Source: Paramylibacter ulvae (GTDB lineage: Bacteria > Pseudomonadota > Alphaproteobacteria > Rhodobacterales > Rhodobacteraceae). Taken from it: a stretch of DNA of 64,000 nucleotides. Shown piece by piece: positions 386-64,000 of this stretch (the stretch's first letter is position 1; the number at the start of each line of letters is the position of its first letter). A program made the position numbers and the translations under genes. The stretch covers positions 1-64,000 of the forward strand of contig NZ_BMZF01000011.1 of the NCBI RefSeq assembly GCF_014652655.1, written 5' to 3'. Under the pieces are notes generated by a model, which saw nothing but the letters and a program-made list of their open reading frames with translations, had not been told where the DNA came from and searched no databases.

Positions 386-2155
386 TTAAAAGAGGTGACG
401 TAAGTTCAGCCCTTCATATTCAATTGCGTGTATTGCTTCTTGTAGCGTTTTTAACTGAATATCACGCGAACCATACCTTGCTCTCATTCCTGTCGAGCTA
501 CGCCCAGTGATCGCGTCTTTCGTGTCAATGTGTAGCTGTGCATTGCCACACGCATCTTCGAAGTTGTGTCTAAAGCTATGAAAGTTAGTTTTTGCGGTCT
601 TGGCATCACATAGCTTCAAGAACCTGCTAAAGTGCTTTGAGAAATGATCAGAGTAACTACCATCCGCGCCAATCTTGATGGATGGGAAAAGCCGTGTTTC
701 TCCTGATTGTTTCATTTCTCTTACAAATTTCAAAAAACCGATGTCGATCAATGTCGGGTGGATCGGAATCTTTCGTTGGGCATTTGGTGACTTAATTCCT
801 TTATCACCCACGTTGCGCTCGTTCGCTAATTTACCATTGATGTCGAGGTAGGGAACTTTATCTGCTTCTTTGATGTCATCAATTTCAAGTTGGCATAGTT
901 CGCTTAAGCGTCCACCTGAAAATAACCCGAGTAGGGGTATCCAGAACTTAGGACTCCCTTTTATCAGTTGCGTTCCTGACCGTGACCAGTGCGTTTCTGA
1001 AAGGCAGCCTGTGAATACTGGCGCGTTAAATATCTTTTCGAGTTGTTCATTGGAAAACGGGTCTCGGGCTTCGCGAGGGTTGCTTCGAATGTTGTATTTG
1101 AGACCTCTCAATGGTTGAGGCGCATTATCATCGAAGTAATGGGCATCTACCCAATTCCAAAACAAGCTAACTTTGCCGATCCCTTTGTTGATGTTTTCGA
1201 AACTCATCGGCTCAAGCTGCAATTCGGACGCCCTTGCAGAAGCCTTGTGAATATCAAGATGTTTGAGTTCTTTTCGAATGCGCCAACTTGGAGGAAGACG
1301 ACTAAAGGTTTCCTTGAACAGCCGCCCATCAGCTTTGCTGTACTGATCTAGATGTTTATCACCACAAACCTCAAGGAAGTTATTTACCCAAGATAAATTA
1401 CTCCGTTTCGTTTTGTCGCTCCAGCCATGTTCGACATCTTTAACCCACTGATCCACGGCTTCACTTAGGTTAGGGTATTTTGAGGCCGTCAGGGCTTCAA
1501 CCTGAGTCACTGAGTCCACCTTGAGGGTGTCGACTATGTTCCCCTCATTTCTGGATAGACGGGCTTCGTGCGCCCTTACAATGCTCCTATACATTTCTCG
1601 GTGAAGGAGACTCCAACTGGGCGATCCCTCAGCTAGCTTTAGTTCTAGTCCATCCCATTCGAGTACTTCTTTGGTTTCTTCTTTTACGAAATCGTCTACT
1701 TTGCCTCGTGCCAGATGATACCTTGCATACTCTAGCATCTCTTCAATTGTGTCGCTTTGTTCCTCAAAGGTATCTCTGGGTAAATATTGCCGTTCGCTAA
1801 TCCAAATCCTCTCGCCATCGATATCCTGAAATTCATCGAACCCTCTCAGGCGTTCATCTTCGTCTTCTTCCAAAATGTATGTGTAATATATTTCCCCAAA
1901 GAGCTTTATTTGCTCTTCGGTCAATTCATCCAAATAAGGCTCATTGGATTGAGCTAACCGTTTTCTATGAGCGTCGAAGCGTTCATCAACTTCAACAGCT
2001 TTGACCCTGACTAAACTTAAGGCTTCGGCTCTGTCTTTTGTTCCAAGCGAGAAGGTCTCTTCTTTTTTACCATAGGTCTTTGCGATGTCCTTGGGGACAG
2101 TTGCACGGTGATAATAAGTCGCGTTTCTACGGTAGAGTCGGGTATGTCCAGTCAT
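386..2155 (-). CDS. Tyrosine recombinase (phage-type integrase), 589 aa
   Basis: A site-specific recombinase that should insert and excise the element it sits in. The N-terminus (TRLYRRNATYYHRATVPKDI) matches the short N-terminal domain of proteobacterial tRNA-targeting integrases (DUF6538 type). The C-terminal half carries the catalytic signature: an Arg in GLFSGGRLSEL, the HSFRH box and a terminal Tyr in MRARYGS. The usual second His before the Tyr appears as ITGRSS, so that position is not canonical. An upstream in-frame codon at 2203 exists, but the Met at 2155 begins the conserved region and is preferred; no strong ribosome-binding site is visible. The gene begins about 100 bases from the 3' end of tRNA-Ala and is transcribed away from it, the usual geometry for an element integrated at a tRNA 3' end. 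The element therefore continues off the left edge. Its base composition is visibly more AT-rich than the neighbours. Confidence 0.9.
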   Translation of the reverse strand: MTGHTRLYRRNATYYHRATVPKDIAKTYGKKEETFSLGTKDRAEALSLVRVKAVEVDERFDAHRKRLAQSNEPYLDELTEEQIKLFGEIYYTYILEEDEDERLRGFDEFQDIDGERIWISERQYLPRDTFEEQSDTIEEMLEYARYHLARGKVDDFVKEETKEVLEWDGLELKLAEGSPSWSLLHREMYRSIVRAHEARLSRNEGNIVDTLKVDSVTQVEALTASKYPNLSEAVDQWVKDVEHGWSDKTKRSNLSWVNNFLEVCGDKHLDQYSKADGRLFKETFSRLPPSWRIRKELKHLDIHKASARASELQLEPMSFENINKGIGKVSLFWNWVDAHYFDDNAPQPLRGLKYNIRSNPREARDPFSNEQLEKIFNAPVFTGCLSETHWSRSGTQLIKGSPKFWIPLLGLFSGGRLSELCQLEIDDIKEADKVPYLDINGKLANERNVGDKGIKSPNAQRKIPIHPTLIDIGFLKFVREMKQSGETRLFPSIKIGADGSYSDHFSKHFSRFLKLCDAKTAKTNFHSFRHNFEDACGNAQLHIDTKDAITGRSSTGMRARYGSRDIQLKTLQEAIHAIEYEGLNLRHLF

Positions 2156-2254
2156 CTTTTCAAGGTTGCTCACTGTAACACTCCAATGTAGCAGTTCTCT
2201 CAAAAAGCACTTATTTTACAGTAACTTGCTGATATTTCAGAAGAAAAAATAAGT

Positions 2255-63525: not shown

Positions 63526-63736
63526 CATCAAAGCCTCCTGCAAAGTTAGGTGAGTGTGGTTGTTCGTGTTGGCGTTAAACTATCGTTCAAATATTGCGCT
63601 GCACAGTACCAATTTCGCGTTCGACGTGACGTAAACGTCAGCTCTGCGCGTCGTGACGTATGGGAAATTGAGAGGAGGTAGAAGTTTCAAAACCCGATGT
63701 GGGCGTTTGGGGCGTTCATCAACAAACATGGATATT

Positions 63737-63781
63737 TGGCGCACCCGACAGGATTCGAACCTGTGGCCTCTGCCTTCGGAG
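63737..63781 (-). pseudogene. 3' part of tRNA-Arg(CCG): attachment site of an integrated element
   Basis: On the minus strand 45 bases read as the 3' portion of a tRNA, starting at the anticodon loop CTCCGAA (anticodon CCG). GGCAG, the 3' anticodon stem, follows, then the T arm ACAGG-TTCGAAT-CCTGT, the acceptor strand CGGGTGC and the CCA end. The 5' anticodon stem, D arm and acceptor 5' strand are missing: upstream sequence is AT-rich and unrelated. This is the copy of the tRNA 3' end left at one border of an element. The rest of the 426 bases between the dehydrogenase start and the integrase contains no gene I can support. Confidence 0.88.
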
Positions 63782-63951
63782 TGCGTTATTTGCTCAATTT
63801 ATCTCGCTTACTTTTTCTTACTTTTCAAATCTAATCTGTTGTTTTTAAATATTAATATTGACATATTGGCTTACTGTTCATTTACTCTGAATTACCCCGA
63901 CTTACCCTCATTTGGTGAACTGGTGGTGAACTGAGAGGACTGAAAAGTAAC

Positions 63952-64000
63952 ATGGCGCGTATTTCAAAACGGTTCGTTGATGGTCTTAAAATCAGTGATA
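63952..64000 (+). CDS. Start of a tyrosine recombinase (integrase) gene, cut by the window edge
   Basis: Only 16 codons are visible: MARISKRFVDGLKISD. This is the type of N-terminus found in integrases of proteobacterial islands and prophages (short basic SAM-like start, then a linker). It starts 170 bases beyond the tRNA-Arg fragment, which is the expected geometry. GAGGA lies ahead of the ATG at a slightly long spacing. The call rests largely on position. Confidence 0.6.
   Translation, partial: MARISKRFVDGLKISD

Follow-up and report, generated by a model that had tools for sequence, protein, structure and literature searches.

The window analysed here, i.e., the whole stretch of 64,000 nucleotides from Paramylibacter ulvae, stops shortly after the start of an integrase gene; the contig itself totals 98,081 bases, and positions given beyond the window continue its numbering. 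From left to right, a displaced fragment of a tRNA-Arg(CCG) gene is followed by the integrase, a protein of 213 aa, an HTH_17-like protein, a hairpin, a Rep protein, an AriB-like protein, an AriA-like protein and an intact tRNA-Arg(CCG) gene (Table 1), with the integrase adjoining the displaced fragment and the cargo adjoining the intact tRNA gene. The block reaches from about 63.74 to 69.91 kb on the contig, with 6.1 kb between the two tRNA copies; its GC content is about 0.38–0.50, versus about 0.47–0.57 in the nearby flanks, and a tRNA was the only match of an Rfam scan. Among the genes of this block, we recognised nothing for capsid or packaging, no coupling protein or pore gene and no P4 hallmark gene, and none of its six proteins matched a primase family.

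Table 1. Features of the P. ulvae tRNA-Arg(CCG) locus (positions above 64,000 are contig positions beyond the window) and, in the last row, copies of a small protein in related elements.
Feature	Position	Strand	Size	Basis or remark
Left attachment site: displaced tRNA-Arg(CCG) 3' fragment	63736–63781	−		anticodon loop to 3' end; seemingly host-type 3' half, discriminator G
Left arm-type repeat (putative), GGTGAACTG twice	63908–63933	+		11-nt spacing; geometry as in relatives
Tyrosine integrase	63952–65241 (window holds 63952–64000)	+	429 aa	Pfam
Protein without assigned family	65237–65878	+	213 aa	ORF
HTH_17/AlpA-like protein	65960–66184	+	74 aa	HTH match below cut-off
Hairpin, putative origin	66274–66296			upstream of rep
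Rep (Rep_trans-like)	66331–67485	+	384 aa	
AriB-like protein	67715–68464	−		
AriA-like protein	68461–69597	−		
Right arm-type partner of the GGTGAACTG pair (putative)	69789–69814			
Right attachment site: intact tRNA-Arg(CCG)	69861–69937	−		ARAGORN; discriminator A
Small RLGLITATIW... protein, upstream of rep	L029 14206–14421; L030 10845–11063; L034 9244–9465; L037 7220–7477			

The preliminary description of this DNA had proposed that a tRNA-Arg remnant begins at the anticodon loop, that an integrase-like gene starts 170 bases past it, and that the intact tRNA-Arg(CCG) lies off the right edge, the whole marking an integrated element at the right end of the window. All of this was borne out: the remnant is 46 nt long, is identical at 45 of these bases to tRNA positions 33–78 of tRNA-Arg(CCG) and starts exactly at the first base of the loop; the ATG at 63952 opens a gene for a tyrosine recombinase (Pfam Phage_integrase, 1.1e-18); and the intact gene lies at 6.1 kb, a typical distance. 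As in an Islander class A island, an intact tRNA gene stands at one end, a displaced fragment at the other and an integrase within, and the fragment is bounded at the anticodon loop. That this loop is a known crossover subsite, as the same description had it, agrees with the figures quoted from the Islander survey, namely 2083 islands with an anticodon-centred attP and 3760 with a 3' tDNA fragment (PMC4383910), and with the relatives delimited below, in which the same position recurs in six tRNAs.

The two tRNA copies are the only ones in the P. ulvae genome that match the tRNA 3'-half pattern with up to three mismatches (the reversed pattern, used as a control, had no match), and their sole mismatch falls on the discriminator base, which is G73 in the left fragment and A73 in the intact gene. 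Since the discriminator differs between the copies, the 3' half of the intact tRNA would have come with the element: the left copy resembles the former 3' half of the host, and the right one the half supplied by the element. The intact tRNA-Arg(CCG) of the closest relative, Amylibacter kogurei, also has G73, and among the 14 pattern-matching relatives of the genus, the base is G in eight and A in six. A search of 33 genomes of the genus found no empty syntenic locus; A. kogurei is the only syntenic relative, and it holds a decayed element at the same site. There (L073, G120:C9:91501-96500), a 32-nt tRNA scar, an ORF of 144 aa and the right end of an element are left, with neither int nor rep. 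As this remnant appears to be a decayed earlier insertion, the same site seems to have been used repeatedly.

Besides the catalytic domain, the window integrase matches Arm-DNA-bind_3 (3.9e-13), and its residues R270, H362, R365, H388 and Y397 are invariant in 13 integrases. The GGTGAACTG pair lies at about +129 nt from the left core and its partner at about −68 nt from the right core; not one of 100 shuffles gave as good a result. Of the 38 elements tested, 26 have paired repeats of this kind, most often TGCTTCC twice at 11-nt spacing, with positions of about +117 to +142 and −54 to −91; 10 of the 12 misses come from left windows of only 138 nt or less. These pairs fit arm-type sites of an integrase of the Arm-DNA-bind type, and we infer that they serve as such. 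No relative of the window integrase was found in 291 other genomes at E 1e-60, which is a strict threshold.

The element belongs to a family, which we followed through its Rep protein. Searching with the single Rep, we found a match in 15 of 198 genomes of the host family; a profile built from 14 Reps matched 47 of the 390 genomes sampled from the order, and this first set comprises 55 loci and 57 Rep rows. A direct repeat at the attachment site could be delimited in 39 distinct elements. In all 39, it starts at the anticodon loop (exactly at the first base of the loop in 31, one to five nt earlier in eight), and the target tRNAs are Met(CAT), Thr(TGT), Lys(TTT), Asn(GTT), Arg(TCT) and Arg(CCG). 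The Rep rows without an attachment repeat mostly come from short contigs or from stretches where no tRNA occurs, and a tRNA does follow on the right in four of them (L037, L121, L124 and L140). The Rep profile also gave 197 matches in the genome_contigs set, of which 79 loci were kept; a single-sequence Rep query matched nothing in genome_contigs or viral_contigs. In a second set of 78, which partly overlaps the first, the attachment repeat was found in 42, no more than 2 nt from the start of the loop in 41 and at +9 in one, and the elements measure 5.9 to 13.1 kb, with a median of 8.1 kb. Hosts of the family include Ruegeria, Celeribacter, Roseovarius and Loktanella and, outside the order, Qipengyuania, Altererythrobacter and Henriciella; matches labelled Tolypothrix and Flavobacteriaceae (L201 and L223) may be contaminant contigs. 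Another 8.8-kb element in tRNA-Arg(CCG) was seen in Rhodobacteraceae bacterium HTCC2083 (L181).

One has to keep in mind that tRNA gene fragments can occur without any element, and the fragment and the integrase gene might in principle be unrelated leftovers, or the two tRNA copies the product of a local duplication. The exact boundary at the anticodon loop, the second copy inside an intact gene, the arm repeats at both ends, the drop in GC content and another 38 elements built in the same way reduce this explanation to a practically negligible one.

On the integrase tree, nine changes suffice to account for the tRNA label, where shuffled labels take 22.2 on average and none of 200 shuffles goes as low, with the caveat that the window row sits on a very long branch. 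On the Rep tree, built for 37 of the integrase-tree rows, 16 changes are required, compared with an average of 21.0 after shuffling, and one shuffle in 200 is as low; integrases are thus tied to their targets more closely than Reps are. In the window element and the first element of A. kogurei L029, the Reps are 81–82% identical, the integrases 24–26%, and the target tRNAs differ; by blastn, the only sequence common to both starts 3 nt ahead of the hairpin and stops near the end of rep. The hairpin as a general recombination boundary was considered and rejected, as 69 pairs with unlike or missing integrases end elsewhere: their left ends lie mostly at about −110 to −190, −480 and −640 to −670, and only three fall at −13, −7 and −3.

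Against Pfam, the window Rep reaches 24 bits with Rep_trans (PF02486), below the gathering cut-off of 29.6; given this weak match, its fold is a predicted one. In the AF2 model (mean pLDDT 87), Rep has the pT181-type fold of Rep_trans initiators. The best PDB matches by Foldseek are the rolling-circle initiators RepSTK1 (3.8e-10) and RepDE, and VIA-align gives Z scores of 13.3, 12.9 and 12.5 for 4cwe (a S. aureus initiator), 4cwc and 4cij, with 223–225 residues aligned at an rmsd of 4.1–4.5, the next match being at 7.9. At the sequence level, the only PDB match of the Rep profile was RepSTK1, at E 0.6. The motifs of Rep_trans proteins, as they are set out in PMC5714925, comprise N' (D), I (RxD), II (T/SxY/ExG), III (YxKxxE) and IV (xRxE), with a D-D-E triad and a catalytic tyrosine. 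D9, R128xD130, Y189xK191 and E233 are invariant in our 14 rows, and E194 and R231 are invariant or at least 90% conserved; motif II is kept only partly, and in most rows motif IV has I or V instead of W/L as its first residue. Rep starts directly at the catalytic domain, and the model shows an extra C-terminal helical region.

In 55 of the 57 rows, a hairpin of the form GGGGGGT-N4-GTARC-ACCCCCC (consensus agGGGGGtnnttGTARCACCCCCCTC) lies shortly before the conserved start of Rep; two of the 55 (L121 and L134) were recognised with a relaxed pattern, and the exceptions are L040 and L042, the latter with a partial Rep. The arms are mostly 7 bp long and GC-rich, with 8–9 nt between them. In the P. 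ulvae genome, the motif occurs in two places, each at a Rep; among 385 genomes of the class, it occurs in seven places in five genomes, all seven beside a Rep, and the reversed pattern has no occurrence. With a looser pattern, 67 of the 78 members of the second set have it. The folding z-scores within the window element are modest (−1.9 and −2.1). The hairpin is likely a rolling-circle origin. In several elements, a small conserved protein (RLGLITATIW...) is encoded directly upstream of rep (Table 1); the one copy scanned had no Pfam match, and a role in binding single-stranded DNA is a possible guess.

PARIS systems are triggered by a phage anti-restriction protein and cleave tRNA. The detection rule of Rousset et al. 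(PMC9122126) asks for adjacent genes that score at least 32 bits with AAA_15 and at least 27 bits with DUF4435; the two genes between rep and the intact tRNA score 66.0 and 35.5 bits, respectively, and overlap by 4 nt. The ATPase keeps the motifs GRNGSGKT, LSAGE and VIVIDE (Walker A/B and signature), and AriA is its best match in a PDB sequence search; its partner keeps the Toprim motifs VEGADD (E30) and DKD (82–84), and the same search gave it no credible match. We call the pair PARIS-like, judging from its sequence. The AriA-like gene contains a 12-nt tandem repeat (contig 68886–68929), which encodes an STQG repeat and may vary in copy number.

In relatives, the same slot mostly appears to be filled by a different defence system. 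The scan covered 33 of 40 elements (the 39 with attachment repeats plus L037; L032, L108, L120, L139, L141, L142 and L144 fell outside it) and only chosen large proteins. PADLOC models matched at 1e-6 or better in 26 of the 33; leaving out L113, where only a cold-shock domain was hit, 25 of the 33 have recognisable defence genes between rep and the tRNA. The cargo includes PARIS-like pairs (2); type I (2), IIG (3) and type III RM; dCTP deaminase; Thoeris ThsB; AbiU; DRT6 (2) and DRT8; OLD/Gabija-like; Dsr1; Zorya ZorA; PDC-S06 (2), PDC-S46 and PDC-M36A (weak); NsnB; kinases (2); and TIR/pAgo-associated proteins. Seven of the 33 (L038, L039, L119, L132, L135, L136 and L137) had no PADLOC match, L135 carrying HD-CE plus HATPase by Pfam. 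As a flank control, 10 proteins picked by hand as gene-like gave no defence match.

Altogether, we hold with good confidence that the locus is a 6.1-kb tRNA-integrated element with its own integrase, a putative rolling-circle Rep and an exchangeable defence slot. On entry, the integrase would recombine attP with the anticodon loop of the only tRNA-Arg(CCG) gene detected; to go by the tRNA copies, the 3' half-tRNA brought in by the element would then have made the gene whole again at the right end, and the host 3' half would have been pushed out to the left end. The integrase probably makes use of the paired arm repeats close to either end, and the AlpA-like protein would act as directionality factor. 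The excised circle would probably be copied by rolling circle, with the Rep_trans protein presumably nicking the G6T/AC6 hairpin, whose fold and conservation just upstream of rep are described above. The slot between rep and the tRNA would hold an exchangeable anti-phage module, here PARIS-like, from which both host and element would benefit.

Since no transfer genes were recognised, movement of the element would have to depend on a helper. The family of Rep was sought among viruses and plasmids: 65 pattern matches in IMG/VR viral contigs yielded none that was confirmed, 50,697 phage records yielded none, and five plasmid records had matches, all of them large (296 kb to 1.2 Mb). We give close to an even chance to a minimal phage satellite, the excised circle of which would be amplified to concatemers by rolling circle and packaged by a helper phage. 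Small size (median 8.1 kb) and few genes fit this reading, and so does the likeness to the PICMIs of Vibrionaceae, which are described as small elements with int, an alpA-like gene, a replication gene and a defence hotspot beside the attachment gene, which carry PARIS, RM, DRT or other RT and retron cargo, and whose concatemers are consistent with plasmid-like rolling circle (PMC10803314). PICMIs are defined in that paper by colocalised int, alpA and prim; here, int is present, the HTH_17 match stays below cut-off, and the primase that the PICMI model requires is missing. Our element also differs in having Rep_trans in place of the primase, in targeting a tRNA anticodon loop and not fis, and in residing in Alphaproteobacteria. 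The lack of a recognised packaging or capsid gene and the empty searches of viral and phage records also count against a satellite. P4-like satellites are comparable in being integrated, satellite-sized and endowed with one variable defence locus that can hold PARIS, as described in PMC9122126; their hallmark genes and their replication protein set them apart.

An integrative mobilizable element, in which Rep would double as a MOBT-like relaxase, the hairpin would be the oriT and a conjugative helper would supply the pore, seems to us less likely, even if several features point that way. MOBT relaxases are related to Rep_trans and, according to PMC9371924, cut at CT'AA within a hairpin loop flanked by 7-bp GC-rich inverted repeats; the hairpins described here are built on similar arms. 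Streptococcal MobT/Rep_trans IMEs such as IME_Sag2603_tRNAlys also combine a tyrosine integrase, a tRNA target and a Rep_trans-related initiator/relaxase (PMC5704250). However, MOBT has an N-terminal HTH fused to its catalytic domain (PMC9371924), which our Rep lacks, and CT'AA is absent from the hairpin loops examined, the complementary strand of which reads GYTACA; the position is thus like that of the MOBT nic, and the nic sequence unlike it. There is also no VirB4 family match in the P. ulvae genome and no recognised coupling protein in the element, and the streptococcal IMEs further differ from it in that it resides in Proteobacteria and that its family carries defence cargo as a rule. 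With a PICMI-like layout in which primase is swapped for Rep_trans and fis for a tRNA, a helper phage is somewhat favoured over conjugative mobilisation.

Much less probable is a satellite of a filamentous phage, packaged as single-stranded circles made by Rep. The best viral fold match of Rep is an Inoviridae protein annotated GST REP (7.8e-11), and CTX phage is reported to use a Rep_trans initiator (PMC5714925); against this stand the absence of any Zot family match in the P. ulvae genome, element sizes up to 13 kb and the lack of a match in phage records.

Among other known systems, the I55-like islands of Pseudomonas share a tyrosine integrase, defence cargo, direct repeats and the lack of recognised autonomous transfer genes; they target tmRNA and are transduced by a jumbo phage, and the sections of PMC12595487 that describe them mention no Rep_trans gene. 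Rolling-circle plasmids of the pT181 family share the initiator fold (RepDE, RepSTK1) and a hairpin next to rep; our element differs in being integrated by a tyrosine integrase, in its nic sequence and in the extra C-terminal region of Rep. In searches of an open-licence library, we found no description of this int-HTH-Rep family; subscription papers were mostly outside this search, and one may be in print. It seems to us an even bet that these elements form an undescribed class of alphaproteobacterial hitch-hikers, in which exchanged integrases choose among tRNA anticodon loops, the replicon is of Rep_trans type with a G6T/AC6 hairpin as origin, and a dedicated slot usually takes one defence module. 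The element is ordinary in principle; what stands out is the coherent and widespread family, the signature hairpin and the defence slot. If this reading is right, such elements would be recognisable by the combination of hairpin and rep, cargo without PADLOC match (e.g., L119, L132, L136 and L137) could represent new defence systems, and roseobacters and their relatives would carry a widespread compact vehicle moving one anti-phage system at a time, whose six-gene plan would make a tractable model for helper-dependent element movement in marine alphaproteobacteria.

A few further observations were made along the way. An ORF of 605 aa at window positions 386–2203, adjoining a tRNA-Ala(GGC) at 2255–2330, presumably resembles another tyrosine integrase and is perhaps the first integrated element of the preliminary description; it did not match the integrase profile of the family. 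The second Rep of the family in the P. ulvae genome lies with its hairpin at C1:970482-971740 (L030 9455–10855), on a contig that ends before its integrase. In L040 (8328–9980), one ORF of 550 aa consists of the first part of an integrase followed, in the same frame, by the second part of Rep, with no hairpin; such a fusion suggests an internal deletion, and this copy is probably stuck. Finally, A. kogurei L029 (4816–19078) holds two tandem elements at a single tRNA-Thr(TGT), and each of them has an integrase and cargo of its own.
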